A DNA stretch of 18,553 nucleotides from Chloroflexota bacterium. Lineage in GTDB: Bacteria; Chloroflexota; Dehalococcoidia; SHYM01. The DNA lies in assembly GCA_016199375.1 (NCBI GenBank), contig JACQGV010000112.1, forward strand, positions 1 to 18,553, written 5' to 3'. The notes beneath the pieces were generated by a model. The model was not told the origin of the DNA. It did not search any database and worked only from the letters and a program-made list of their open reading frames with translations. Positions 2,354 to 16,457 of this stretch are shown here, piece after piece. Made by a program: the position numbers and the translations under genes. Positions within the stretch are counted from its first letter, which is position 1. Each line of letters opens with the position of its first letter.

Positions 2354-3454
2354 ATGACCCGTAAGCCACCCCTGTCGCGTGGACTCGGTGATGCGCCCAG
2401 CAGGGAAGGGCCGCCGATCAGTACTGTTTGGATTGAGACTAGCCACGGGCGGGCCTTCTGGGCAGACTCAGCGATCCTAATGGCTGCCTTTGAGCGGGCT
2501 TCGATTGATCTCATTGTGACGAGCCCGCCGTTTGGGCTGGTTAGGAAGAAGGAATACGGGAATGCGGATGCTGACCAATATGTCGAGTGGTTCAAACCCT
2601 TTGCCAACGAATTCAGGCGAATCCTGCGACCAACGGGTTCGCTAGTGATCGACATTGGGGGGGCGTGGATACCCGGCCAGCCCACCAAGAGCCTCTACCA
2701 GTACGAGCTTCTTATCACACTATGCAAGGAGTTTGGTTTTCACCTCGCTCAGGAGTTCTTTTGGTGGAATCCGTCACGGTTGCCGACCCCCGCCGAGTGG
2801 GTGAACATTCGCCGTATCAGGGTCAAGGACGCCGTTAACACCATCTTTTGGCTTTCGCGCACGCCTTGGCCCAAGGCGAGTAATCGTAGAGTCCTGACAC
2901 CGTATAGCGAGAGCATGCGGACCCTCCTTGTAAATGGCTATCGGGCCAAAAAGAGGCCCAGCGGCCATGACATCAGCACGAAGTTCAATGTAGACAATGG
3001 GGCTGCGATCCCTCCGAACCTGATTGCCGTCGCGAATACTGAGAGCAACTCGAGGTACCTGAAGTACTGCGAGGAGCACAATCTACCGCCTCATCCGGCT
3101 CGGTTCCCTGCGTCGATCCCAGAATTCTTCATTCGGTTCCTGACAGATCCTCGCGATATCGTGTTTGACCCATTCGCGGGAAGTTGCATTACCGGCGAGG
3201 TGGCCGAACGCCTGGACCGCCGCTGGATATGCGCCGAGATTCGGGACGAATACTTGTCAGGAGCGAGGGGAAGATTCCTCGATGCGCCGACTGCTAACGT
3301 TCGTAAGACACAGATAAGTGACGACGATTTCTACAAGATCGCGAGGCCAGGCATCTTGTGGAATGGCGTACTTGAGCCGGCGCTGCCTTCAGATGGCGGG
3401 CGAGCTAGGCCCTTGTTCACGCCTGGACGAAGTCCTAAGTCGAAGTTGGTATAG
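2354..3454 (+). CDS. Site-specific DNA amino-methyltransferase (beta class, probably N4-cytosine)
   Basis: The catalytic motif IV comes first (LIVTSPPF, residues 53-60) and the AdoMet-binding motif I last (FDPFAGS, 271-277), the order that defines beta-class amino-methyltransferases. A Ser before the Pro-Pro (SPPF) is typical of N4-cytosine enzymes, though N6-adenine cannot be excluded. The stretch SGHDISTKFNVDNGAAIPPN (203-222) and PHPARFP (246-252) are conserved in this family. Its 366 residues are a normal full length, and the last 55 form a tail outside the catalytic core. The nuclease gene starts three bases after its stop, so this is probably the protecting half of a type II system. No strong ribosome-binding site is seen. 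Base composition is less GC-biased than in the flanking genes, suggesting transfer. Confidence 0.88.
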   Translation: MTRKPPLSRGLGDAPSREGPPISTVWIETSHGRAFWADSAILMAAFERASIDLIVTSPPFGLVRKKEYGNADADQYVEWFKPFANEFRRILRPTGSLVIDIGGAWIPGQPTKSLYQYELLITLCKEFGFHLAQEFFWWNPSRLPTPAEWVNIRRIRVKDAVNTIFWLSRTPWPKASNRRVLTPYSESMRTLLVNGYRAKKRPSGHDISTKFNVDNGAAIPPNLIAVANTESNSRYLKYCEEHNLPPHPARFPASIPEFFIRFLTDPRDIVFDPFAGSCITGEVAERLDRRWICAEIRDEYLSGARGRFLDAPTANVRKTQISDDDFYKIARPGILWNGVLEPALPSDGGRARPLFTPGRSPKSKLV

Positions 3455-3457
3455 GGG

Positions 3458-4447
3458 ATGCCCGCCGTCACGCCAGCCAGAATCCTTCGGGCGGTCCTGA
3501 ATGCTGTCGGTGCTTCCGGCGGAGTAGGGCTGGTAGTTCGAGATGGCCAACCGCGCGAACTTCGGATCCAAGTGGCAGGCGGCGAGCTTTCCATTTGGGC
3601 CTACGTGTGGACGCTGACCCACGGCGGGCGGCCAACTCTGCCTCACGAATACCGAATCCAATTGACCTCGGTGCGATCGCCGCTCGCGCTCAATCCCGAT
3701 GGCGTGACAGTGCTCATTGGCTACGAACCCGATCTGGACATGTTTGCCGGTTTCGACCTGAAGCGCCACAGGCGCTTCACACCAGGGTCGCCGTCCGTAC
3801 AGATTGACATACGCAAGATCCAGCAGGCTCTCCAGAACGGTGTGGCGTTCGACCTCAAAGAGAACAACGAGATAGCTGTGGCCTTCCGCCCCGATCACTT
3901 TCTGTTCTACAGCCAGCATTCAAAAGAGCTCCACGCGGCCGGCCAGAGTGCTCAGGTTCTCAATCTTCTCGGGCGGGCAGCGGCTCGTCAAAACATTCGA
4001 GCTGCCGACTTGGCCCTCGTCCCGGCGCAGAGACAAAGGGTTGTCGAACAGGTGGCGCGCTTCGCACGTGCAGCCAACTTTAGGGACCAGGTTCTCAACG
4101 CCTACGACCGTCGTTGTGCTGTCACTCGCCTTCAGTTGCGTATCGCTGAGGCCGCTCACATTCTTCCAGTTGCAGCTGGCGCACGAAGTCTTGATGTTGT
4201 CGGCAACGGCATCGCCTTGTCACCCTCGTACCATCGTGCCTTCGACAGCGGGTTGATCTACCTGGGTGAAGATCTCGTCATGCGTGTCAATCGCCACATG
4301 GCTCTGGACCTGAGGGCAAAGGGACTGGCAGCCGGGCTTGAATCGTTCCGTGCACCGTTGGGCAGGATTCACCTCCCAGCCGACCGGAACCAGTGGCCAG
4401 ACCCCCGGTTTGTCAGGTTGGCCAATGAGTTCAGAGGGGTACATTAG
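3458..4447 (+). CDS. HNH restriction endonuclease with an uncharacterised N-terminal domain
   Basis: The C-terminal part (about 205-275) is an HNH_2-like nuclease domain: CAVTRLQLRIAEAAHILPV with metal/catalytic His234, then Asn250 (DVVGNGIALSPSYHRAFDSG) and His259. The N-terminal 160 residues carry no motif I can name. They hold conserved-looking segments EYRIQLTSVRSP (64-75), IGYEPDLDMFAGFDL (87-101) and GSPSVQID (110-117), and may be the DNA-recognition domain. The ATG follows the methyltransferase stop by three bases and a GGGG run precedes it, so the pair is translationally linked. I infer that it cleaves DNA at the site the methyltransferase protects. Like its partner it has lower GC than the surrounding genes. 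Confidence 0.8.
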   Translation: MPAVTPARILRAVLNAVGASGGVGLVVRDGQPRELRIQVAGGELSIWAYVWTLTHGGRPTLPHEYRIQLTSVRSPLALNPDGVTVLIGYEPDLDMFAGFDLKRHRRFTPGSPSVQIDIRKIQQALQNGVAFDLKENNEIAVAFRPDHFLFYSQHSKELHAAGQSAQVLNLLGRAAARQNIRAADLALVPAQRQRVVEQVARFARAANFRDQVLNAYDRRCAVTRLQLRIAEAAHILPVAAGARSLDVVGNGIALSPSYHRAFDSGLIYLGEDLVMRVNRHMALDLRAKGLAAGLESFRAPLGRIHLPADRNQWPDPRFVRLANEFRGVH

Positions 4448-4618: not shown

Positions 4619-5323
4619 CTAATACTCATACGGCGGCTTTGAATCAGGGATCGGCCTGGCGTCATACGGCTCGGCGCCCTCCAGCTCGTAGTAGGTCTCC
4701 TCGTAGGGGGCGCCCCGCGACGGCCACTTGGGCACGTCGAAGTGCCTCATCTTCGCCCCCAGCGCCTGCAGCGTCGCCTCGTCCACGATCTTGAAGAAGC
4801 GCCAGCACATATCGGGGCACTGGCCGCAGGCCGGGGTCAGCCCGCACTTGTACAGGTGCTCGTGCAGCACCTTGTCCGAGAACTTCAGCAGCTTCACGTC
4901 CGCGGGCTTGCCCTGGAACAGCTCGTACTCGAAGCGGAAGTACTGGAAGATGGTGTGCATGTCCTCGGGGTTGATGCTGTGGCGCTTGCGGATGCCCTCG
5001 GCCCGCTGGGTGCCGATCTCCCAGGCGATATCGTGGAGGATGGCCCAGGCGTCCTCGCCGAAGCGGTCGGTCATGCGCTTGACGATGGCGCCGATCATGT
5101 GCAGGTACGAGCGGCTGATGAGCCGGATGGAGGTCTCGGGCCGGAAGTTGAAGTGGGGCATGTCCGCGTACTCGACGTAGTCGTATTGGGCCTGGATGCG
5201 GGCCATCTCCTGGGGGCTGTACTCGCGGGGCGCGTCGCCGGGCCGGGCGAAGCCGCCGGCGGCGTGGGCGTGCTCCTCCACGTTCCACTGGGGGTAGTGG
5301 GACTCCTGGGTGGGCTCTGGCAT
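4619..5323 (-). CDS. Conserved-looking protein of unknown function with a Cys cluster
   Basis: This is a 234-residue soluble protein. After a low-complexity N-terminus it has a mostly helical core (FRPETSIRLISRSYLHMIGA, then RFGEDAWAILHDIAWEIGTQ) and a cysteine cluster C-x5-C-x2-C-x3-C (C160, C166, C169, C173 in KCGLTPACGQCPDMCW), which could bind zinc or an Fe-S cluster. The 'RFGE.AW' and 'GTQRAEGIRKRH' pattern weakly recalls L-2-amino-thiazoline-4-carboxylate hydrolase-like or DUF6125-like families, but I would not assign it. The start at 5323 is chosen because GGAGGG (5329-5334, minus strand) lies five bases upstream; the in-frame upstream extension is low-complexity. The alpha/beta hydrolase gene lies upstream on the same strand, 116 bases away. 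Confidence 0.75.
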   Translation of the reverse strand: MPEPTQESHYPQWNVEEHAHAAGGFARPGDAPREYSPQEMARIQAQYDYVEYADMPHFNFRPETSIRLISRSYLHMIGAIVKRMTDRFGEDAWAILHDIAWEIGTQRAEGIRKRHSINPEDMHTIFQYFRFEYELFQGKPADVKLLKFSDKVLHEHLYKCGLTPACGQCPDMCWRFFKIVDEATLQALGAKMRHFDVPKWPSRGAPYEETYYELEGAEPYDARPIPDSKPPYEY

Positions 5324-5439
5324 GGTGTCCCTCCGTTCGTCAGTGTGCGCTGGCGAGCGCGGCCCCCGCGCCCGCCGCAGTTGGCCCCAAGCTATCATGG
5401 GCCCTGCGGGGGCGCAATGGGATGCGGCTTGGGGCGGAC

Positions 5440-6349: not shown

Positions 6350-6404
6350 CCTGGGACTCGCAACCGCTGACACCAGGTGCCGGATGGCAGCCTGGGGGAG
6401 CAGA

Positions 6405-6854
6405 ATGCTTGAAGGGCAGGTGGCAGCCCCTGGCCGAGGGCTTCCGCTGTGGCGACGCAAGGTCTTTGTGGTGGGGCTCGTCCTAGCCCTCGCCCTGGGC
6501 TATCTGCTCTATGTTTTTCTCTCGGCCTCCAGCGGCGCCAGCTACTATGTGACGGTGAGCGAGCTGCGGGAGCTGGGGCCCCGGGCCTACGGCAAGACGA
6601 TCCGGTTGAACGGCAACGTGCCGGCGGAGTCCATAGTGAGCGATAAGGCGAGCGATACGCTGCGTTTTGCGATCCAGGATGGGGGCGCCACCGTGCCAGT
6701 GGAGTTGCGGGGGGTGGCCGGAGACTTCTTCTATAGCTACAGCGCGGATGTGGTGCTGGAGGGCACCCTGCAGCCCAGCGGAGTTTTCCTGGCCCGCTCC
6801 GTCATCACCAAGCACCCCACGAAGTTCGAAGGGTCCCCCGAGGCGAGCCGCTAA
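6405..6854 (+). CDS. CcmE-like cytochrome c maturation haem chaperone
   Basis: CcmE carries haem, covalently bound, to apocytochrome c on the outer face of the cytoplasmic membrane. This 149-residue protein has a short cytoplasmic N-terminus, one membrane anchor (VFVVGLVLALALGYLLYVFL, 20-39) and the OB-fold core: SYYVTVSEL (46-54), GKTIRLNGNV (63-72), LRFAIQDGG (86-94), VVLEGTLQPSGVF (116-128). The haem-ligating position is His137 in ITKHPTKFEG, but the usual H-x3-Y tyrosine is Phe141. I chose ATG 6405 because GGGGGAG (6394-6400) precedes it; an ATG at 6384 would add seven residues. It opens the cluster encoding cytochromes c, which fits its role. No other ccm gene is in the window. Confidence 0.85.
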   Translation: MLEGQVAAPGRGLPLWRRKVFVVGLVLALALGYLLYVFLSASSGASYYVTVSELRELGPRAYGKTIRLNGNVPAESIVSDKASDTLRFAIQDGGATVPVELRGVAGDFFYSYSADVVLEGTLQPSGVFLARSVITKHPTKFEGSPEASR

Positions 6855-6865
6855 GGAGAGCAGCC

Positions 6866-9691
6866 ATGGGCCTGGGCGAGGAGCTGGGGCGAGGCAAGGC
6901 GCCGCCGGTTGCGGCGCCTCCGGCCCTGGTTGCCCTGACCATAGATGGCAAGGTGGTCCAGGCCAGGGCTGACCAGTCCATCGTCGAGGCGGCGCGGGAC
7001 GCCGGCATCTACATCCCCACCCTCTGCTCGCACCCCAGCATGAAGTCCTTCGGCACCTGCCGGGTCTGTACCGTGCAGATCGGCGGGGCCGATACCCTCG
7101 TTCCGGGCTGCGTCACGCCGGTGGCCCAGGGCATGGTGGTGCAGACCAGCACCCCCGAGGTGCGGAGGGTCCAGCGCGATATCGCCAAGTACTACATTGA
7201 CGAGTGTCTCCATCCCAATGCCTGCCTGATCTGCCACCGCCGCGAGAAGTGCGAGCCCTACCAGGTCTGCCTGCGCCAGGTCCGTTGGCAGGAGGCCGAT
7301 TCCTGCCTCTACTGCCCCCGCAACGGCCGCTGCGACCTGCAGCGGGTCGCCGACTTCGTGGGGGTGGAGGAGGCGACGGCGGGCTTCCCTACCAAGTGGC
7401 AGGGCGTCCCCGTGGACACCCGCGACCCCTTCATCAACCGGGACTACAAGCTCTGCATCGTCTGCGGCAAGTGCGTCCGAGTCTGCGAAGAGGTGCGCAA
7501 CCTCAACGTCTATATCTTCACCTATCGCAACGGGCTCCCGGCCGTGGGCACTCCCGAAGACAAGAGCCTGGTGGAGGGTGGCTGCGACCACTGCGGCGCC
7601 TGCGTGGACGTCTGCCCCACGGGCGCCCTGATGGACAAGTTCTACAGCGCCGGCGAGCCGCCGCTGCCCAGCCAGGAGGGTGCGGTCTCAACCGTCTGCC
7701 CTTATTGCAGCGTGGGCTGCAAGCTCTCCCTGGAGGTGGAGAAGGGCCGGCTCCTGCGCCATATGCCGGACGTGCTGGGCCCCGTCAACGAGGGCACCGC
7801 CTGTGTGAAGGGGCGCTTTGCCCTCGATTTCGTGGAGCACCGGGACCGCCTGACGCAGCCCCTGGTCCGTCGGGGCGACAAGCTCGTCGCCGCGACCTGG
7901 GAGGAGGCCCTGGGCCTGGTGGCCGAGCGCTTCGCCCAGGCCCGGGGGCGCCAGTTCATGGCCGTGGCCTCGGGCCTGAACACCAACGAGGATAACTACG
8001 TTTTGCAGAAGTTCACCCGGGTGGCGATGGGAAGCAACAACATTGACAGCTCCGCCCGCCTCTCCCACGGCGCTACCCTGGCTGGCCTCACCGAGGCCCT
8101 GGGGCTGCCCTGCATGACCAACTCCATCCGGGAGCTCCGCCAGGCCGGCTGCATCCTGGTTGTCGGCTCCAATGTGACCGCCGACCAGCCGGTGCTGGCC
8201 GACCAGATCAAGATCGCCGCCCGCCAGGGCGCCAAGCTCATCGTCATCAATCCCCGGCGCATAGACCTCTGCCGCCAGGCCGACCTCTGGCTGCGCCCCC
8301 GGCCGGGCACCGATATGGCCCTCCTGGCTGGTCTGGCCCGGGCGATCCTTGAGAACGGCTGGGCTGACCTGGCCTTCGTGGCCACCAGGGCCCAGGGCTT
8401 CGACGCCTTTGCGGCCTCCGTGCAGCCCTTCACACCGGAGCGGGTGGCGGAGCTAACCGGTGTGCCAGCAGGCCAGCTTCTGGAAGCGGCGCGGCTGTAC
8501 GCGGTGGCTTCCCAGGCGGCCATCGTCTATGGCACGGGCATTACCCAGCACGCCGACGGCACCGCCCGCGTCCGGGCCATCGCCGATCTGGCGCTCCTCA
8601 CCGGACAGGTGGGGAAGGCGGCGGCGGGCGTGGTTCCGGCCCTGAAGCAGGCGAACCACCTGGGGAGCTGGGACATGGGGTGCGCCCCCGACCTGCTGCC
8701 CGGCTATCAGCAGCTACCCCAGGCTGCCGCCAAGCTGCGGGACATCTGGGGCGTGGAGCCCCCGTCCGCGGCGGGGCTCTCCCTCTTCGAGATGCTGGAG
8801 GCGGCGCGGCGGGGCGAGATCAAGGCGGCCTACCTCTGCCGCGAGGACCTGCTCCGGAGCCTGCCCGACAGCGCCGCCGTGGCGGCCGCCCTGGGCAAGG
8901 TGGGATTCCTGGTCGTCCAGGACTCCTTCCTGACGGCGACGGCCCAGCGGGCGGACGTGGTGCTGCCGGCGACGGTCTTCGCCGAGAAGGAAGGCACCTT
9001 CACTAACCTGGAGCGGCGCATCCAGCGCCTGCGCTGCGCCCTGCCCAGCCCCGGCCAGGCCCGGGGCGACTGGGAGACCACCGCGGAGCTGGCGCGCCGC
9101 CTGGGGGCGCCGGGCTTCGACTATCGGGATGCCGCCCAGATTATGGATGAGATCGCCCGCGCGGCCCCTATCTATGGCGGTGTGAGCTATGGGCGGCTGG
9201 AGAGCCCCGACGGGCTCCAGTGGCCCTGCCCGGCCGCGGGGCACCCGGGCACGCCGCTCCTCTACGCCGAGGGGTTCCGTGGGGGTAAGGCCCGGATGGC
9301 GCCTATCGAGCACCGGCCTGCCAGGGCCAGCGACGGCTATCCGCTGGCCCTCACTATAGACCCCTCCATCTATCAGTTCGAGAGCGGCACCTGGACCCGC
9401 CTCACCCCTGGGCTCCAGCAGCTCCAGGGGGAGGAATTGTTGGAGGTGAACCCCGAGGACGGCCGGCGGCTGGGTATCGCCGACGGCCAGCGGGTGCGGG
9501 TGGTATCAGCGCGCGGCTCGGTGGAGACCAGGGCGAAGCTGACCGCTGCGTCGCTAGAGGGACAGGTGGCCCTGACAGGCCATTTCCAGGAGGTCCCGGC
9601 GCACCTTTTGACCGACGGCGCCCTGGATCTCCTGGGCAAGGGGCCAGCGGTCCAGGCCAGCGCCGTTCGGGTAGAGCGGCTGGAGCGCTGA
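6866..9691 (+). CDS. NuoG/SfrA-like Fe-S molybdopterin-fold oxidoreductase subunit
   Basis: The 941-residue product has, in order: a [2Fe-2S] domain (C54, C65, C68, C82); a NuoG-type H-x3-C-x2-C-x5-C site (H116, C120, C123, C129) followed by a second C-x2-C-x5-C (C147, C150, C156); two [4Fe-4S] motifs (C197/200/203/207 and C240/243/246/250); a molybdopterin-oxidoreductase domain with its own Fe-S site (C278, C281, C285, C313); and a C-terminal MGD-binding domain (about 820-935). In ARLSHGATLAGL the position of formate dehydrogenase's catalytic Cys/Sec is Ser400, with the next His kept. It is thus unlikely to be a formate dehydrogenase and is closer to NuoG or to SfrA of SfrAB-type NADPH oxidoreductases. 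AAGGAGAG (6853-6860) precedes the ATG. With the next gene it probably forms a soluble electron-transfer module. No signal peptide is seen. Confidence 0.85.
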   Translation: MGLGEELGRGKAPPVAAPPALVALTIDGKVVQARADQSIVEAARDAGIYIPTLCSHPSMKSFGTCRVCTVQIGGADTLVPGCVTPVAQGMVVQTSTPEVRRVQRDIAKYYIDECLHPNACLICHRREKCEPYQVCLRQVRWQEADSCLYCPRNGRCDLQRVADFVGVEEATAGFPTKWQGVPVDTRDPFINRDYKLCIVCGKCVRVCEEVRNLNVYIFTYRNGLPAVGTPEDKSLVEGGCDHCGACVDVCPTGALMDKFYSAGEPPLPSQEGAVSTVCPYCSVGCKLSLEVEKGRLLRHMPDVLGPVNEGTACVKGRFALDFVEHRDRLTQPLVRRGDKLVAATWEEALGLVAERFAQARGRQFMAVASGLNTNEDNYVLQKFTRVAMGSNNIDSSARLSHGATLAGLTEALGLPCMTNSIRELRQAGCILVVGSNVTADQPVLADQIKIAARQGAKLIVINPRRIDLCRQADLWLRPRPGTDMALLAGLARAILENGWADLAFVATRAQGFDAFAASVQPFTPERVAELTGVPAGQLLEAARLYAVASQAAIVYGTGITQHADGTARVRAIADLALLTGQVGKAAAGVVPALKQANHLGSWDMGCAPDLLPGYQQLPQAAAKLRDIWGVEPPSAAGLSLFEMLEAARRGEIKAAYLCREDLLRSLPDSAAVAAALGKVGFLVVQDSFLTATAQRADVVLPATVFAEKEGTFTNLERRIQRLRCALPSPGQARGDWETTAELARRLGAPGFDYRDAAQIMDEIARAAPIYGGVSYGRLESPDGLQWPCPAAGHPGTPLLYAEGFRGGKARMAPIEHRPARASDGYPLALTIDPSIYQFESGTWTRLTPGLQQLQGEELLEVNPEDGRRLGIADGQRVRVVSARGSVETRAKLTAASLEGQVALTGHFQEVPAHLLTDGALDLLGKGPAVQASAVRVERLER

Positions 9692-9726
9692 GGTGGCTCT
9701 GAGACTGGCTCATAGGGATAAGGACC

Positions 9727-9742
9727 CCCTTCCGAAGGGAGG
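9727..9742 (+). promoter_or_regulatory. Ribosome-binding site partly inside a small hairpin
   Basis: GGGAGG (9737-9742) lies six bases before the ATG at 9749. Its GGG is the 3' arm of CCCTT-CCG-AAGGG (9727-9739), so folding would partly hide the site. The gap between the two genes (57 bases) is the longest in the first half of the cluster. This suggests modest translational tuning of the flavoprotein; it is an inference only. Confidence 0.3.
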
Positions 9743-9748
9743 CGGGCG

Positions 9749-11197
9749 ATGAGCTATGCCAAGGACCCGGCAGCACGGTACGAGGTCTCCCTGGTGGACG
9801 TGGAGTACTATCAGAAGACCATCAAGTGCCAGTGGGCCTGCCCCGTGAAAACGGATGTGTCCGGCTATGTGAACGCTGTGGCCGACAAGGACTACCAGAC
9901 GGGCTACGTCATGGCGCGGCAGCCCAACCCCTTCTCCAGCGTCTGCGGCCGCATCTGCGTGGCGCCCTGCGAGGCGGCCTGCCGCCGCTCCGACGTGGAC
10001 GTGCCTATCCAGATCCGCGCCCTCAAGCGCTTCCTCACCGAGCGCCACGGGGTAGAGTCCAAGGGGCCCGGCTCCAAGGGGATCGAGCTGCTGCTGGACA
10101 ACGCCCCGGGCAACTCCCGCACCGCCGAGAGCGTCTGGTCGCTCAACCGCACCTACGCCAGCCTCAAGGAAGCTAATGGCAAGAAGGCCGTCGCCATCGT
10201 GGGCGCCGGGGCCGGGGGCCTGACGGCTGCCCACGACCTGCGGCTCATGGGCTATCGGGTGGCTGTGCTGGAATCCTTCCCCGTCCTCGGGGGGGCGCTG
10301 CGCACCGCGATCCCCGAGTACCGGCTGCCCCGCGAGGTGCTGGACGGCGAGATACAGGACATAGTCAGCCTGGGGATCGAGGTCCGGACCAACGTGATGC
10401 TGGAGCGCGACTTCACGGTGGCTGACCTCAAGCGCGAGGGCTTCAATGCCGTCCTCATCGCCACTGGCCCCGAGCGCAGCCGCAAGCATGCCAGCCCCAG
10501 GGAGGGGGTCTACGCCCTGGGGGACTTCGGGCAGGGGACCATCGCGGTCATTGACACTATCGGGGCGGGGCACCGCGCCGCCATCGCCCTGGACGAGTTC
10601 CTGCGCAAGAAGAAGGCCCGCGTCGTCAAGCGGGGCTGGCTCACCCCGGTGGAGCCGGAGGACTACCTTAGCTTTGGCTACGACTACCTGGAGTGGCCGG
10701 GGGAGACGCCGCCGCACAACCGCTTCGAGACCCCCGAGACCCCGGGCTGTGGCCATGAGCTGGAGGAGCCTTATCCGGAGTTGATGGGGCGGCGCCAGGG
10801 CGCCCGCTGCCTCAAGTGCCATATCCAGACGGTCTTCCACGGCGAGAAGTGCATCCAGTGCAACGGCTGCGTGGATATTTGTCCCTGGGACTGCCTGAAG
10901 ATGGTGAGCCTCAGCGAGATCGCCGGCGATGAGGACATGAACCGGGTCATCGAGGCCAAGTACGGCTACGATCTGAAGACCTTCCAGGAGCGCGGTGGCG
11001 ACGTGGAGTTCCTCTCCCAGGGCGCCGTGATGCTGAAGGATGACTCGGTCTGCACCCGCTGCGCCCTCTGCTACAAGCGTTGCCCCACGGGCGCCATCAC
11101 CATGGAGCTGTTCGAGTTCGCGGAGGAGATCGTCTTCGAGGACGCGCCGGAGGCCGAACTGGCGACAGCAACCGCCGTGGGAGGCAGTAAGCCATGA
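9749..11197 (+). CDS. GltD/SfrB-like flavin Fe-S oxidoreductase lacking the NAD(P)H-binding domain
   Basis: The 482-residue product begins with the GltD-type Fe-S region (C27, C31, C66, C70, C74, C78), followed by the FAD-binding Rossmann motif VGAGAGGLTAAHDL (151-164) with Glu175 at the ribose position. GltD/SfrB relatives then carry a NAD(P)H domain of roughly 150-200 residues. Here NAVLIATGPERSRKH (233-247) runs straight into GVYALGDFGQGTIAVIDTI (253-271), the closing FAD segment, so that domain is gone in frame. The C-terminus has C354/C357 and two ferredoxin motifs (C368/371/374/378 and C435/438/441/445). Pyridine-nucleotide binding is not expected; electrons probably pass between FAD, the clusters and the NuoG-like partner or the bc complex. 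The ATG overlap with the next gene (ATGA, 11194-11197) indicates translational coupling. Confidence 0.85.
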   Translation: MSYAKDPAARYEVSLVDVEYYQKTIKCQWACPVKTDVSGYVNAVADKDYQTGYVMARQPNPFSSVCGRICVAPCEAACRRSDVDVPIQIRALKRFLTERHGVESKGPGSKGIELLLDNAPGNSRTAESVWSLNRTYASLKEANGKKAVAIVGAGAGGLTAAHDLRLMGYRVAVLESFPVLGGALRTAIPEYRLPREVLDGEIQDIVSLGIEVRTNVMLERDFTVADLKREGFNAVLIATGPERSRKHASPREGVYALGDFGQGTIAVIDTIGAGHRAAIALDEFLRKKKARVVKRGWLTPVEPEDYLSFGYDYLEWPGETPPHNRFETPETPGCGHELEEPYPELMGRRQGARCLKCHIQTVFHGEKCIQCNGCVDICPWDCLKMVSLSEIAGDEDMNRVIEAKYGYDLKTFQERGGDVEFLSQGAVMLKDDSVCTRCALCYKRCPTGAITMELFEFAEEIVFEDAPEAELATATAVGGSKP

Positions 11198-12093
11198 TGC
11201 TCCCGCCCATACCCGCTCCCCTGCGGGCGCCCCTGGACCGCGCCATCGAGGTCAACAAGATGGTGCTGGACCTGGTCCGCCAGAGCCCGCCGTGGAAGTC
11301 TATCTTTCGCAACGCCTACCCCAACACCGACGAGAACCGGGCCCTCGTCATGTTCAACAGCTTCTTCCTTCACATCATGCCGGTGAAGGTGAAGCAGAAT
11401 ACCTTGAAGTGGACCTACACCTTTGGCCTGGGGCTGATGACCTTCTATCTCTTCCTCCTGCTCTTCATCACCGGCATCATCCTGATGTTTCTCTACGTGC
11501 CCGCGGCGGAGCGCGCCTACCAGGATATGCAGCGCCTGGGCACCAGCGTTGCCTACGGCCAGCTCCTGCGGAACTCCCACCGCTGGGCGGCGCACCTGAT
11601 GGTGCTCTTCGTCTTCCTCCACATGTGCCGGGTGTTCTACACCGGCGGCTACAAGCCGCCGCGGGATTTCAACTGGGTGGTGGGGGTGCTGCTGCTGGTG
11701 CTGACCCTGCTGCTCAGCTTCTCTGGCTACATCCTGACCTGGGACCAGTTGGCCGCCTCGGCCATCACCGTGGGCGCCAACATCGGGGGCGCCAGCCCCT
11801 TCCTGGGCGGCATCGTGAAGGCCTTCATCCTGGGGGCCGATGAGCCGGGGCCCGCCACCCTCATCCGGGTGTATGCTTTCCATGTAATCCTGCTGCCGAC
11901 CGCCGTATTTATCATGGCGGGGGTACACTTCTGGCGGATCCGTAAGGACGGGGGGCTTTCGGCCCCCGCCACGGCCCGCAAGGCCCGGCACGTTCTAGTC
12001 CCCAGCGCCCGGGGCGGCTTCACTGTAAAAGAGGTCCCTCCGGTGTCGCCGGAGGCCCAGGTGCCGCCGTCCCCTGAGGAGGTGCGACGCTGA
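11194..12093 (+). CDS. Cytochrome b, b6-type N-terminal subunit of a split bc complex
   Basis: This 299-residue membrane protein holds the four-helix haem core of cytochrome b. Helix A is about 74-100. Helix B has His129 and His143 (SHRWAAHLMVLFVFLHMCRV), helix C is about 161-181, and helix D has His230 and His245 (FHVILLPTAVFIMAGVHFW). The 14-residue spacing in helix B and 15 in helix D match cytochrome b6 rather than bc1 cytochrome b. The quinol-site CD region (GYILTWDQLAASAITVGANI) is present. The b6 cysteine that holds the extra covalent haem is absent before helix A. The N-terminus (about 60 residues) and the Pro-rich C-terminal tail extend beyond b6. Its ATG overlaps the flavoprotein stop, and the stop shares one base with the next ATG. 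Confidence 0.9.
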   Translation: MMLPPIPAPLRAPLDRAIEVNKMVLDLVRQSPPWKSIFRNAYPNTDENRALVMFNSFFLHIMPVKVKQNTLKWTYTFGLGLMTFYLFLLLFITGIILMFLYVPAAERAYQDMQRLGTSVAYGQLLRNSHRWAAHLMVLFVFLHMCRVFYTGGYKPPRDFNWVVGVLLLVLTLLLSFSGYILTWDQLAASAITVGANIGGASPFLGGIVKAFILGADEPGPATLIRVYAFHVILLPTAVFIMAGVHFWRIRKDGGLSAPATARKARHVLVPSARGGFTVKEVPPVSPEAQVPPSPEEVRR

Positions 12094-12878
12094 TGGCTAA
12101 GGGAGAGACTGTCGTCCAGGACATCAACCCCAAGGACCCCAACAAGACCTACGGGTTGATGGAGCTGATGAAGGGGCGGGCCCCCCTGGTGGACAAGGGG
12201 GGACCGGAGGAGAGCCTTTTCTCCTGGCCTCACCTCATGATCTGGCTCACCGTGGTCTTCCTGGGCCTCCTCATCGTGGTTGTAGGCATCTCGTGGATCG
12301 CCGACGCCCCCTTGCGGGAGCCCTTCGACACCGACGTGCCTGAGAACCCCGCCAAGGCGCCCTGGTACTTCCTGAACCTCCAGGAACTCCTGCTCCACAT
12401 GGACAAGAGCCTGGCCGGGGTGATAGTGCCCAGTATCGTCCTGGGGGTCCTCATGGCCCTGCCCTTTATTGACCGCAACACCCGTGATGTCGGCATCTGG
12501 TTTGCCACCAAGAAGGGTGTCCAGATCTCCATCTTCACCACCATCTACACTGTTGCCTGGATCACCGCGGGGGTGCTGTTTGACGAGTCCAACATCTTCG
12601 GCGGGTTCTTGCGCCTGCTGCCGGGCTTGACGGGGCTGACAGCCACCATCGTCGCCGGCTGGCTGCTGCCGGTGGTGGTGATGGTAGCCCTGATCGGGCT
12701 GCTCATGGCGATTGTGGAGGTACGGTGGCGGCCCAACATCCGGGAGCGGGCTATGGCCCTCTTCACCGGCTTCGCTGTGGCTTACCTCTACCTGATCGTC
12801 ATCAGCATGTTCTTCCGCGGCTTCGGCATGCACCTGACCTGGCCCTGGGACCTGCCTCCCAAGGCCATCCCGTTCTAG
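12093..12878 (+). CDS. Cytochrome bc complex subunit IV-like protein (C-terminal cytochrome b half)
   Basis: The 261-residue product starts with a soluble segment, then a membrane helix (about 46-68) and the ADAPLREPFDTDVPENPAKAP region that leads into the quinol-oxidation (Qo) loop. At the PEWY position the sequence is APWY (89-92), so the proton-accepting Glu is replaced by Pro. FLNLQELLLHMD follows, as in menaquinol-type complexes. Further hydrophobic helices lie at about 107-126, 145-163, 183-211 and 220-243. That is more than the three of subunit IV, so this is a QcrC-like extended form, here without any haem c-binding CXXCH. It completes the quinol-binding core with the preceding cytochrome b. 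The ATG shares one base with the upstream stop (TGATG). Confidence 0.85.
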   Translation: MAKGETVVQDINPKDPNKTYGLMELMKGRAPLVDKGGPEESLFSWPHLMIWLTVVFLGLLIVVVGISWIADAPLREPFDTDVPENPAKAPWYFLNLQELLLHMDKSLAGVIVPSIVLGVLMALPFIDRNTRDVGIWFATKKGVQISIFTTIYTVAWITAGVLFDESNIFGGFLRLLPGLTGLTATIVAGWLLPVVVMVALIGLLMAIVEVRWRPNIRERAMALFTGFAVAYLYLIVISMFFRGFGMHLTWPWDLPPKAIPF

Positions 12879-12920
12879 CCCTGGGCACAGGCACGCTGGC
12901 TAACGGAGGTTTACGGACAG

Positions 12921-13457
12921 ATGGCCCTCAGCGGACAGACGGCCCGGCGCAAAGGGCTCTCCCGGCGCGAGTTCATCACCATCGGGTGGTGGGCGGCGGC
13001 GGGCCTGGTATTGACGGAGATCTCGGCCGGGGTTATCTACTCCCTCTGGCCCAAGGACAAGCCGAAGGCCAAGGTCGAGGCCTTCGTCGCCGGTACCCTG
13101 GACCAGTTCAAGCTGGGTGAGCCGGTCCTTTTCAAGAAGCAGCGGCTCTACTTGTCGCGGGTGCCGGAGGGCGTTATCGCCTTCTCCACCAAGTGCACCC
13201 ACCTGGGTTGCTTCGTCCCCTGGCGAGCCGACGACCCGAGTGAAGATGAGCCGGGTAAGTTCAACACTGGCAAAGGCCGGTTCAACTGCCCCTGCCACGG
13301 CTCTATCTACACCCGCTACGGCGTGCGCGTCGCCGGGCCGGCCCCACGGCCCCTGGACTGGTACAACGTGAAGCTGGATGGCAGCAAGGTCGTGGTGACC
13401 ATCGGCAAGCCTATCCAGCGCCAGGGGGTGACCCCTGACCAGATTGTGCCGGTGTAG
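12921..13457 (+). CDS. Rieske [2Fe-2S] protein of the bc complex
   Basis: The Rieske protein takes the first electron from quinol and passes it to cytochrome c. The 178-residue product has both cluster motifs: CTHLGC (C92, H94, C97) and CPCHGSIY (C123, C125, H126), where Ser128 and Tyr130 are the usual potential-tuning hydrogen-bond donors. The N-terminus carries a twin-arginine-like SRREFIT motif (14-20) before a single hydrophobic anchor (21-42), which suggests Tat export while staying membrane-bound. GGAGG (12905-12909) precedes the ATG at a longish 11 bases. The stop is three bases before the next gene. Position and motifs leave little doubt. Confidence 0.95.
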   Translation: MALSGQTARRKGLSRREFITIGWWAAAGLVLTEISAGVIYSLWPKDKPKAKVEAFVAGTLDQFKLGEPVLFKKQRLYLSRVPEGVIAFSTKCTHLGCFVPWRADDPSEDEPGKFNTGKGRFNCPCHGSIYTRYGVRVAGPAPRPLDWYNVKLDGSKVVVTIGKPIQRQGVTPDQIVPV

Positions 13458-13460
13458 CCG

Positions 13461-14267
13461 ATGGACAAGAAGACCATCTTCGGTGTCCTGGCAACCCTGC
13501 TTATCGTCCTTATGGTCCCTGGATACGGGCTTTGGGACGGCCTGGTCCGCCAGAAGACGGCCAAAGAAGGCTTTCTGGCCAGCGACGCCCAGCGTGGGGT
13601 GGAAACCTATATCCAGTTCTGCGTGAGCTGCCACGGCCCCGACGGCCAGGGCAAGGTGGACCCCCAATACATCGGCCTGCCCCTGAACCCCATCTACCGC
13701 AACCAGCTTGGATTGGACGAGCTGGGGGCGGACGTGGCCCGCAAGACCATCGCCCGCGGGCGGCCGGGCACGGCCATGCCGGCGTGGAGCGTGGAAGAGG
13801 ATGGGGACCTCAAGGACTACCACATCCGCGACCTGGTTACATTCCTGACAACCTGGGAGAAGGCTGAGCATCTGCTGAAGGAGGCGCTGGCCCACCGCGC
13901 TGCCGCCGCGACTCCCATAGCGGCGCCGACTCCAACTCCGGCGGTGCCAGCTACACCTGGGCCGGCGGCGGCGGACCCCGCCGTGGCCCGCGGCAAGGCG
14001 CTGATCACCGGCCAGGGCTGCGGCGCCTGTCATACGATCGCGGGAGTGCCGGGCGCGGCCGGCGCCATCGGGCCCAAGCTGGACGGGATCGCGACCGCGG
14101 CCGCTAACCGCAAGCCGGGGCTCTCCGCCGCCCAGTATATTGAGGAGTCCATCCGTGAGCCGGCGGCCTTCACCGCCCAGGGCTTCCCAGCGGGCGTGAT
14201 GCCCAAGCTGTCCCTGAGCGACGCCCAGGTCAGGGATCTGGTGGCGTTCCTGCTCAGCCTCAAGTAG
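13461..14267 (+). CDS. Membrane-anchored dihaem cytochrome c
   Basis: The 268-residue protein has an N-terminal anchor (about 6-24) followed by two class-I cytochrome c domains: CVSCH (54-58) with distal Met106 (GTAMPAWS), and CGACH (187-191) with Met247 (GVMPKLS). They are joined by a Pro/Ala/Thr-rich linker (about 148-174). It probably replaces cytochrome c1/f, taking electrons from the Rieske centre and handing them to the following lipoprotein or to a terminal oxidase. The second domain is a close paralogue of the next gene. The ATG is three bases after the Rieske stop, so they are co-translated. No terminal oxidase is in the window. Confidence 0.92.
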   Translation: MDKKTIFGVLATLLIVLMVPGYGLWDGLVRQKTAKEGFLASDAQRGVETYIQFCVSCHGPDGQGKVDPQYIGLPLNPIYRNQLGLDELGADVARKTIARGRPGTAMPAWSVEEDGDLKDYHIRDLVTFLTTWEKAEHLLKEALAHRAAAATPIAAPTPTPAVPATPGPAAADPAVARGKALITGQGCGACHTIAGVPGAAGAIGPKLDGIATAAANRKPGLSAAQYIEESIREPAAFTAQGFPAGVMPKLSLSDAQVRDLVAFLLSLK

Positions 14268-14342
14268 GGCGGCTTATGCGACAGGGGTAGCCAGGGCTTG
14301 GCGAATGGTGTATTCTCTGGCGTTGTGTAGGAGGTGTCGTCA

Positions 14343-14834
14343 ATGAGCAGTCGTGCGCCTCTGGTACTGGCAGGCATCCTGAGCGCGGCAGCGCTCGCCT
14401 TCGCCGCCTGCGGAGGCGGGGGCGGTGGAGCGGCGGCGCCGACCGCTACGAGGGCGGCGCCTGCCCCCACGGCGGCCCGGGCCGCTACCACGGCGGCGCC
14501 GGCGGGCGGCGATGTGGCGCGGGGCAAGGCGCTGATCGTATCCCAGGGCTGCGCCGCCTGCCATACTATCGCTTCAGTACCCGGGGCCGTCGGCGCGGTG
14601 GGGCCCCGGCTGGACGCGGGGCCTATTCTGCCCGGAAAGGCTAATGAGCCTGGGATCGGGACCCGGGCTGCCACCCGGAAGCCACCCCTCACCGAGGCCC
14701 AGTACATCGAGGAGTCCATCCGCGAGCCCGATGCCTTTGCGGTGCCGGACTTCCAGAAGGGGCTGATGCCCAAGCTGCCCGTGAGCGATGCCCAGGTCAA
14801 GGACCTGGTGGCGTTCTTGCTGACCCTGAAGTAG
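14343..14834 (+). CDS. Monohaem cytochrome c lipoprotein
   Basis: The 163-residue product begins with a lipoprotein-type signal (hydrophobic stretch 6-21, then AFAAC with Cys23) and a Gly run, followed by an Ala/Thr/Pro linker (about 30-55). The cytochrome c domain has CAACH (70-74) and Met142 (GLMPKLPVSD). It is closely similar to the second domain of the preceding dihaem cytochrome, with a ten-residue insert (about 93-107). It is probably the mobile, lipid-anchored electron carrier between the bc complex and an oxidase. AGGAGG (14329-14334) lies eight bases before the ATG; this start is preferred over an in-frame GTG at 14334 that overlaps the ribosome-binding site. It closes the cluster. 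Confidence 0.9.
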   Translation: MSSRAPLVLAGILSAAALAFAACGGGGGGAAAPTATRAAPAPTAARAATTAAPAGGDVARGKALIVSQGCAACHTIASVPGAVGAVGPRLDAGPILPGKANEPGIGTRAATRKPPLTEAQYIEESIREPDAFAVPDFQKGLMPKLPVSDAQVKDLVAFLLTLK

Positions 14835-14952: not shown

Positions 14953-15846
14953 CTACTCGAAGATGCTGGCTACGATCTCCTCCAGGCTGCGCTGGACCTC
15001 GGGGTCGTCGGTGAGGGTCCAGACCACGGCGACCTGACACGCCCGCCGCGCGGCGATGCCCATCTGCATCAGCTTGCCGCTATAGATCAGGAGGCGGGTG
15101 CTGGCGCCCTCCTGCAGGCCGTGCTCCTTGAGGTTGCGGACCTTCTCCCCCAGCTTCGCCAGGTCCAGGGCGCGCTCCAGGGTGACGCCGCTCTCATGCT
15201 GGATGATCTGGGCCTCGGCCTGGCGCGGGGGATAGTTGAACTCCATGGCGATGAAGCGCTGGCGGGTGCTCTGCTTGAGGTCCTTCAAGGCGCTCTGGTA
15301 GCCGGGGTTGTAAGACATGACCAGCAGAAAGCCGTCGCTCGCCTCCACCACCTGGCCCCGCTTTTCGACCGGCAGGATGCGCCGGTGGTCGGTGAGCGGG
15401 TGGATAAGCACGGTGGTGTCCTTGCGCGCCTCCACCACCTCGTCCAGGTAGCAGATGCCCCCGGCCTTGACGGCGCGAGTCAGGGGGCCATCTATCCAGA
15501 CCGTGGACTCGCCCTCGATGAGATAGCGTCCCACCAGGTCGCTGGCGGTCAGGTCCTCGTGGCAGGCCACCGTGACCAGGGGCAGCCCCCGCTTGGTCTC
15601 AGCCTCGGCCTCCCTGGCCTTGGGCTTCAGCGTGGTCAGGGGCGCGCCCAGCCTCCAGGCCATGTACTCCACGAAGCGGGTCTTGCCGCAGCCCGTGGGC
15701 CCCTTCAGGAGGACCGGGATTTTCTGGGCGTAGGCGGCCTCGAAGACCTTGATCTCGTCGTGGATGGGCAGGTAGTAGGGCTCTTCGGTGGCCCGGTATT
15801 CTTCAATGACATGTTCGCGGAAGGTCTTGGTCTCGGTGCGTACCAT
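14953..15846 (-). CDS. CbbQ/NorQ-type (MoxR-like) AAA+ ATPase
   Basis: CbbQ/NorQ ATPases remodel metalloenzymes such as Rubisco or NO reductase together with a VWA-domain partner. The 297-residue product has Walker A GPTGCGKT (49-56), [20 protein letters not shown] (95-114), Walker [12 protein letters not shown] (131-141), sensor-1 MSYNPGYQS (177-185) and the arginine region STRQRF (193-198). These are family hallmarks. About 20 extra charged residues (about 71-90, [14 protein letters not shown]) sit between RLGAPL and [10 protein letters not shown], where relatives run on directly. The start at 15846 is two bases after the coaE stop and gives the normal N-terminus, so the two genes are one operon. 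No VWA partner (NorD/CbbO) is in the window, so the target is unknown. Confidence 0.85.
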
Positions 15847-15848
15847 AT

Positions 15849-16457
15849 TTAGCGCCGCCCGTCCCGCAGCGAGTTCCAGGCCGCTACCACCTGAGCCCGG
15901 GTCTCCTCTAGAGTGCAATCGGTGCGGATAATCACCTGGGCTCGCTGGGCCTTTTCGTCTATCGGCATCTGGGCTGCGATACGCCGTCTGGCTTCCTCGG
16001 GCGGCAGGGGAAGGCCGTCCCTGGACGTGAGCCGCTTGATGACCACCTCCTCGGGCGCGTAGGTGACCCAGACCCGGTGCACCAGCCGATCGAAGCCGGC
16101 CTCGAAGAGCACCGCAGCCTCCAGGACACCTACCTGGACCCCTTCCTTCTCCTTCTCGTCAAAGATCTCTACGGCCTTACGGCCGATCTCGGGCTGCACA
16201 ATATCCTCGAGGCGCTTCAGGCGCGCGCGATCGGCGAAGACGATGGCGCCCAGCTTCTTGCGGTCTATCTCGCCGTCAGCCGTCAGGACGCCCTGGCCAA
16301 ACTCCTTGACCACCTGCGCCCAGCCGGAAGTCCCTTTGGCATAGACCTGGTGTCCTAGCTTGTCGGCGTCGAGGACGAGGGCCCCCAGCTCCGCCAGGAT
16401 CTTCGCCACCGTGCTCTTGCCGCTGCCAACGCCACCGGTCAGACCGATCCGAATCAT
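15849..16457 (-). CDS. coaE: Dephospho-CoA kinase
   Basis: CoaE phosphorylates the 3'-hydroxyl of dephospho-CoA, the last step of coenzyme A synthesis, in the cytoplasm. The 202-residue length is normal. The N-terminus [13 protein letters not shown] (4-16) contains the P-loop, followed by [13 protein letters not shown] (with the conserved DAD), the substrate-lid region [18 protein letters not shown], and [23 protein letters not shown]. The R-x2-RI-x2-Q segment (RRRIAAQMP) is also conserved. The start is firm because relatives begin the same way. A promoter ends nine bases before the ATG, leaving almost no leader. The AAA+ ATPase gene follows by two bases. Confidence 0.95.

Follow-up and report, generated by a model that had tools for sequence, protein, structure and literature searches.

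A Chloroflexota Rieske/cytochrome b gene cluster with a GltD-type flavoprotein lacking its NAD(P)H domain and a formate-dehydrogenase-alpha-like neighbour

Hauser et al. 2025 (PMC12954380) describe two complexes of Kuenenia in which a putative NAD(P) oxidoreductase accompanies a Rieske protein, a b6-like cytochrome b and a subunit IV of five helices, and they predict that a histidine at the cytochrome b dimer interface binds an extra haem b. According to the same text, the anammox complexes are proposed to make NAD(P)H, and Kartal et al. are cited there for Rieske/cytochrome b complexes of anammox bacteria. A GltD unit is also found in StnC, for which a structure has been solved. There, GltD is joined to a NuoG/FdhF-like part (PMC10482914); the GltD and NuoG parts carry electrons, and the FdhF domain is catalytically inactive, its clusters lying off the electron path. 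The locus studied here, a Rieske/cytochrome b cluster of a Chloroflexota bacterium that includes a GltD-like flavoprotein, was originally put forward as the best candidate in the window for an undescribed system, on the understanding that bc complexes normally stand alone. That understanding is not supported, and for the GltD part neither is the claim of novelty, since anammox Rieske/cytochrome b complexes with a putative NAD(P) oxidoreductase are already in print (PMC12954380).

An eight-gene run in Chloroflexota

The window, that is, the whole 18,553-nucleotide stretch of DNA that was analysed, comes from a metagenome-assembled genome (MAG; G000) of 1.44 Mb in 251 contigs that is 63% complete. 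Its nearest named relatives are Chloroflexota, partly Dehalococcoidia. On the plus strand, positions 6384-14834 carry, in order, ccmE, an fdhA-like gene, a gltD-like gene, cytochrome b, subunit IV, Rieske and two cytochrome c genes. The original prediction had described such a plus-strand run, without naming ccmE, and with ATGA and TGATG overlaps; all of its genes are there in the order it gave, and the overlaps are exact.

The run opens with the gene of a CcmE-like haem chaperone for c-type cytochrome maturation (6384..6854, +; Pfam CcmE, 75.7 bits), within which position 6405 is an internal ATG and an alternative start. It continues with an FdhA-type (formate-dehydrogenase alpha-like) Fe-S subunit of 941 aa (6866..9691, +; TIGR01591, 663.7 bits), a GltD/SfrB-type flavoprotein of 482 aa that has a C-terminal ferredoxin domain and no NAD(P)H-binding domain (9749..11197, +), a b6-type cytochrome b of 299 aa (11194..12093, +; Pfam, 128.7 bits), and a subunit IV-like protein (12093..12878, +) recognised by Pfam and a hydrophobicity scan. 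Then come the Rieske protein with the motif CTHLGC...CPCHGSIY (12921..13457, +; Pfam Rieske model and motif), a cytochrome c with two CxxCH motifs and an N-terminal hydrophobic segment (13461..14267, +; Pfam, hydrophobicity scan and CxxCH count), and a small cytochrome c with one CxxCH and a GTG start (14334..14834, +; Pfam and CxxCH count), which appears lipoprotein-like, judging only by its N-terminal sequence. An ATGA stop/start overlap links gltD to cytochrome b (11194..11197, +) and a TGATG overlap links cytochrome b to subunit IV (12091..12095, +), both read directly from the sequence. The remaining gaps measure, in order, 11, 57, 42, 3 and 66 nt. The 57-nt gap, which separates fdhA from gltD without overlap (9692-9748), holds a short palindrome (CCCTTCCGAAGGG) adjoining a likely ribosome-binding site.

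G001 (locus L023), which belongs to another genus of the same family, carries these eight genes in an identical order, so the run is real and conserved and not a product of chance. Between the two genomes, dN/dS was 0.11 for gltD, 0.14 for Rieske, 0.16 for cytochrome b, 0.17 for the fdhA-like gene, 0.19 for subunit IV, 0.21 for ccmE and 0.22 for the two-haem cytochrome c. The last cytochrome matches only weakly (28 bits; 30% identity), and its dN/dS of 0.48 comes with a divergence too great for judging selection. A ccmE gene upstream of gltD or fdhA was also seen in several Chloroflexota (L023, L028 and L153).

Outside the run, the window encodes a Fic/DOC domain protein (438-953, +) and, at 2354-4447 (+), a DNA methylase (PF01555) followed by an MTaX1 and HNH protein, which together look like a restriction-modification pair. 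A 259-aa ORF at 4619-5398 (-), with several cysteines in its C-terminal half, gave no Pfam or NCBIfam match at E 0.001. A CbbQ/NorQ/GvpN-type AAA protein (14953-15918, -) is encoded convergently to the bc cluster.

The GltD-type flavoprotein and its FdhA-like neighbour

One genome per species was scanned for loci pairing gltD with bc genes, and the best 80 of at least 244 confirmed loci were considered, which amounts to no census. Most of these 80 have a full-length gltD beside Rieske/cytochrome b/cytochrome c genes, and they come from Acidobacteriota, Planctomycetota (including Scalindua), Nitrospirota, Bacteroidota, Myxococcota, KSB1, Zixibacteria, Actinomycetota and others. The GltD-linked Rieske/cytochrome b cluster is present in at least 10 named phyla and is not special to anammox bacteria; the pairing of GltD with bc genes is itself of a known and widespread kind. 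Over all loci read, cytochrome b lies no more than 5 kb downstream in 74 of 95 rows with full-length or truncated gltD, a count that holds one contig (L041/L152) twice. Among the other 21 rows, seven have bc genes upstream (L066, L082, L090, L093, L096, L099 and L100), and L118 has them downstream, where they were missed by the count through overlapping ORF calls. That the flavoprotein belongs with the bc genes, as had been predicted, is therefore borne out in the loci surveyed, where its closest relatives mostly adjoin cytochrome b/Rieske genes, as well as by the His60 motif described below. In the GltD-linked Rieske/cytochrome b loci L046, L047, L051, L053, L058, L071 and L110, from Acidobacteriota, Myxococcota and others, large molybdopterin oxidoreductase-like genes (71-122 bits to FdhA) stand behind the cytochrome c genes.

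The window flavoprotein departs from its full-length relatives at residues ~246-252 (10484..10504, +), the junction where, in alignments, their NAD(P)H domain is missing. Alignments to relatives of ~660 aa split at this point, for example into query residues 7-250 and 247-469 in G038. Seventeen Fe-S-motif cysteines are kept in 12 of 12 GltD-type proteins without the NAD(P)H-binding domain (hereafter delta rows; P0002 and L024 are one protein), and the structure predicted for the window protein, likewise without the domain, reached a pLDDT of 89.2. Since the domain is missing, the designation of an SfrAB-type NADPH oxidoreductase that accompanied the first description does not fit. In a tree of 112 rows built without the NAD(P)H-domain columns, the delta rows formed one clade among Chloroflexota full-length proteins (SH-aLRT 99, one change). 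Inside this clade also falls P0241 (589 aa), which does have the domain. P0085 is the row nearest to it (76% across the columns compared); its ends are of the delta-clade type and its FAD+NAD(P)H middle is like that of ordinary GltD, which points to a regain by recombination or an assembly chimera. Once P0241 is counted, the delta label needs two changes on the tree. This mosaic means that the domain loss is not absolute; the sequences are most simply explained by one loss of the NAD(P)H domain with one mosaic exception.

An uninterrupted match to the delta profile was obtained in at least five of 393 genomes of the class (G000, G001, G016, G075 and G090) and, among 400 genomes of the phylum, was listed only for G000, at most four candidates having been scored per genome in both searches, so that misses are possible. 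Besides the window, the distinct delta loci are L023, L024 (same contig as L039), L040 (same as L149) and L150. An FdhA-like gene lies directly upstream of gltD in all five, the window included, the FdhA-like genes of two of the four non-window loci being pieces cut by contig ends. Of 63 full-length GltD rows that are followed by cytochrome b and have 3 kb or more of sequence on their upstream side, two showed an FdhA-like match (>60 bits within 3 kb upstream), both from KSB1 and both distant (L049 and L056; 91 and 96 bits); L042 has an FdhA/NuoG-like gene upstream and no cytochrome b. The delta loci are not independent of each other, as the delta rows form one clade. Their architecture occurs in five genomes of three families, represented by MAGs that are 63-86% complete. 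What is new is the loss of the NAD(P)H domain together with an FdhA-like gene beside bc genes, a combination absent from the original prediction, and no title or abstract found in a search that left subscription literature mostly outside names an FdhA-linked Rieske/cytochrome b complex.

The pair had been named NuoG/SfrA-like and GltD/SfrB-like, and only the second name can be kept as to type. NuoG was rejected as a name for the large subunit, which scores about twice as high against the Fdh-alpha model (663.7 bits, cut-off 666) as against NuoG (323.8 bits), and no match to a NuoE/NuoF partner was found among the 18 window proteins scanned. The best PDB sequence matches of the window FdhA are the formate dehydrogenase alpha subunits 9wxb and 6tg9, and its predicted structure (pLDDT 77.6) has formate dehydrogenases and periplasmic nitrate reductases as top fold matches (VIA rows). 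By sequence and predicted fold, the formate dehydrogenase (FDH) fold and the Fe-S cysteines are present; a hydrophobicity scan found no hydrophobic segment.

Residues of the active site are changed. In an alignment of 120 proteins that includes the window's, Ser400 (codon 8063..8065, +) aligns with the Cys/Sec that ligates Mo/W in formate dehydrogenases, a column with Cys in 117 proteins, Ser in two (the window and P0122) and Gly in one. Leu593 (codon 8642..8644, +) stands in a column with Arg in 113 proteins, Ser in three, Leu in two and Gly in two, which we take to be that of the catalytic Arg of formate dehydrogenases. Two further residues of the FDH site, Lys315 and His401, are retained. 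Given Ser in place of the metal-ligand Cys and Leu in place of the catalytic Arg, the window FdhA is probably not a formate dehydrogenase. The NCBIfam Fdh-alpha model is blind to such changes, with the G001 copy above its cut-off and the window copy about at it. The window, G001 and P0122 proteins all have Ser-His and Leu at the ligand and Arg positions; of the two contig-end pieces of G016, one shows Ser-His and the other has Ala where the Arg would stand. The protein of G075 (lineage f32) keeps the formate-dehydrogenase residues, Cys-His and Arg.

Two inserts of two residues each, at 114-115 (7205..7210, +) and 144-145 (7295..7300, +), are present in all four rows labelled bc-linked, namely the window, P0122, G075 and the N-terminal G016 piece, the label of P0122 resting on 84% identity and not on gene neighbourhood. 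Among the 121 other rows, mostly of unread neighbourhood, the first insert is found in one and the second in two and none by position. Both inserts are common to proteins of three families, and their occurrence in the bc-linked FdhA proteins suggests one FdhA recruitment. The FdhA tree (55 rows), which came with a long-branch warning, is not taken as proof of one origin because its seven bc-linked rows have long branches and require two changes.

Four other FdhA-like genes (L155-L158, on stretches of 5-19 kb) have no matching bc gene alongside, and among FdhA-like genes whose neighbourhood was read, bc genes adjoin only the copies beside a domain-less GltD. The original prediction had named homologues lying mostly away from bc genes as the observation that would tell against it. 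For GltD the opposite was found, most relatives being beside bc genes; for FdhA the association is weaker, as L155-L158 illustrate. One of these genes, at 865-3837 of L158, is a second FdhA-like gene of the window's own genome, with Ser-Tyr at the ligand and Ala at the Arg position. Another, an FdhA piece of G090 at 4603-6060 of L155, has Leu at the Arg position and no bc match on its 6-kb contig, so loss of the Arg is not confined to bc-linked copies.

Membrane subunits, Rieske protein and genome context

All four haem-ligand positions of cytochrome b (H129, H143, H230 and H245) are His in each of the 85 rows taken from GltD loci, 82 of which are distinct. His60 (11371..11373, +), which matches by motif the predicted dimer-interface haem ligand of the anammox complexes, is His in 85 of 85, and K251 and R250 are present in 85 and 83 rows, respectively; these three residues were equated with those of Kuenenia by motif, in a set holding one Scalindua locus (L091) and no Kuenenia sequence. 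An unlinked second cytochrome b of the window's genome (L033) has Leu, His and Lys at the His60, R250 and K251 columns, where its alignment is loose. Gly78 of the window protein falls in a column, not anchored to a solved b6, that has Cys in 8 of 85 rows, and we take this Cys as a haem cN ligand.

On the Qp side, the cd loop (residues 180-189; 11731..11760, +) is changed in the window lineage, reading TWDQLAAS against PWDQ..YW in the alignment. The window and G001 depart from their relatives at eight cytochrome b positions that are conserved elsewhere (158, 180, 182, 189, 218, 222, 226 and 229), seven of which presumably fall in the cd loop or just before the P-side haem ligand His230. The window lineage thus has a changed quinol site, which makes it uncertain that quinol is oxidised there in the ordinary way. 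Five hydrophobic segments were counted in subunit IV, and its PEWY Qp motif is replaced by APWY; APWYF makes up 82 of 102 motif-like matches in GltD loci. The window Rieske protein has both the Ser and the Tyr of CPCHGSIY beside its cluster, which occur in 82 and 19 of 87 locus rows, respectively. In other Rieske proteins, as PMC12954380 states, Ser and Tyr at those sites make the potential higher.

COX1 was found in all five delta genomes, and four of them yielded no Pfam cytochrome b other than the linked one, so the delta complex is probably the complex III of these genomes, within what MAG incompleteness allows to be read. FdhD was found in none of the five; it is also absent from three of five comparison genomes and is hence not a decisive marker of an active formate dehydrogenase. 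The MoaA C-terminal domain was detected in G000, G001 and G016, and not in G075 or G090, the lineage whose FdhA keeps the formate residues, which either speaks against a working formate site in G075/G090 or reflects gaps in the MAGs. NuoF-like genes occur in all five.

Proposed complex, alternatives and relation to known systems

We hold it somewhat probable, from the sequence comparisons, that the cluster encodes one membrane complex, a b6/Rieske-type quinol:cytochrome c oxidoreductase whose cytoplasmic electron port was swapped from NAD(P)H to an FdhA-type subunit. In the parent kind, the GltD-type subunit would link the b haems to NAD(P)H; in the delta clade, the NAD(P)H domain would have been deleted, most simply once, and an FdhA-type Fe-S/molybdopterin subunit recruited, apparently once. 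We infer the binding of FdhA and GltD to the bc complex, as well as the cofactors, path and direction. Electrons would pass from the Fe-S clusters of FdhA to those of GltD (FAD alongside), and on through the interface haem at His60 and the b haems to quinone, and the Rieske protein and cytochromes c would deliver high-potential electrons to the oxidase. In lineage f32 (G075), whose FdhA keeps the formate-dehydrogenase residues, formate would be favoured as donor by little better than an even chance against the reverse direction. In the window lineage, Ser400 and Leu593 suggest that FdhA most likely either has a Mo/W site that acts on a different substrate or serves purely as an Fe-S wire. A more specific scenario is rather doubtful: a complex III in which a formate-dehydrogenase-type cytoplasmic subunit replaces NAD(P)H, quinol being coupled to formate/CO2 in f32 and then, once the formate residues had been lost, to a different molybdo-substrate in the window lineage.

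That FdhA of the window lineage is an inert Fe-S wire, to which a soluble donor would dock (for instance ferredoxin, or a NuoEF-type diaphorase whose genes lie elsewhere), is a real possibility that we place somewhat short of even. Ser400 and Leu593 in the window would fit it, as would Ser and Ala in the two G016 contig-end pieces, the NuoF-like genes of all five delta genomes and the inactive FdhF domain of StnC, a parallel that is partial because the FdhF clusters there lie off the electron path (PMC10482914). However, the protein has a complete FDH fold, its gene shows purifying selection, the site retains Lys315 and His401, MoaA is present in three of five delta genomes, including G000 and G001, and the cluster contains no diaphorase gene. 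We regard as unlikely a bifurcating output, in which quinol at Qp would send one electron to Rieske/cytochrome c and the other via the b haems and GltD to FdhA, which would then reduce CO2 (f32) or another low-potential acceptor (window lineage). The parent complexes are proposed to run in that direction, for NAD(P)+ in anammox (PMC12954380). Both potential-raising residues of the window Rieske protein and the presence of oxidase genes would suit it as well. Against it, CO2/formate, at about -430 mV, is a more demanding target than NAD(P)H, and FdhA of the window lineage has lost its CO2/formate residues; the Qp residues of that lineage are changed as well.

A soluble SfrAB-like pair simply co-transcribed with an ordinary bc complex seems improbable. 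The make-up of FdhA plus GltD-like protein is that of SfrAB, as the original prediction put it, and 57 nt separate gltD from the gene before it, but the GltD protein has lost the NAD(P)H domain on which a pair of this type depends, GltD adjoins cytochrome b in many phyla, and the interface residues of cytochrome b are conserved. Decay or assembly error, which would leave a broken GltD and an FdhA in a poor MAG, is hardly credible: even with a genome 63% complete in 251 contigs and P0241 as an example of mosaic sequence, the same architecture in five genomes of three families contradicts it as separate copies, and so do the dN/dS values of 0.11 (gltD) and 0.17 (fdhA) and the confident GltD fold.

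If the electron port was indeed exchanged for an FdhA-type subunit, complex III can be rewired by swapping its cytoplasmic module, and some oxidase-bearing Chloroflexota would respire via a complex III with a formate-dehydrogenase-type arm. For the Rieske/cytochrome b complexes that are proposed to make NAD(P)H, the cluster would also serve as a natural test, having lost the NAD(P)H site and kept the b-haem interface residues.

Set against known systems, the cluster resembles SfrAB and the NADP-linked formate dehydrogenases in having FdhA-type and GltD-type genes side by side, but these enzymes keep the NADPH domain that the window GltD lacks. At L157, an FdhA gene lies beside two GltD-type genes, with no bc match in the 19-kb stretch. 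With cytochrome bc/b6f complexes the window shares the four haem His ligands and the Rieske cluster motif, and not PEWY. Its cytochrome b matches the ExtP model of Geobacter ExtOPQ (261 bits, cut-off 290) and its subunit IV weakly matches ExtQ, whereas the Ext cluster, in the consulted part of PMC5877670, has multihaem cytochromes and a porin and no GltD or FdhA gene. The GltD-type fold is common to the StnABC/NfnABC transhydrogenases (8oh5, 9bov and 9n5u) and the window. In contrast, StnC is one fused chain that includes an NADPH domain and belongs, together with a bifurcating module of the HydBC type, to a soluble complex; the window cluster has neither an NADPH domain nor a HydBC-type or NfnA partner.

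The anammox clusters (Kuste4569-4574 and Kustd1480-1485) have in common with the window that a GltD-type Fe-S flavoprotein is encoded together with a Rieske protein, a b6-type cytochrome b and a subunit IV of five helices, and they share with it, by motif, the interface His and basic residues (His60, R250 and K251). Unlike them, the window has a GltD without the NAD(P)H domain, an added FdhA-like subunit and two small cytochromes c in place of multihaem ones, and it carries Gly where 8 of 85 relatives have the presumed haem cN ligand Cys. Because the NAD(P)-binding domain is absent, the window cluster is best read as a derived variant of the anammox-type complex and not as a member of it.
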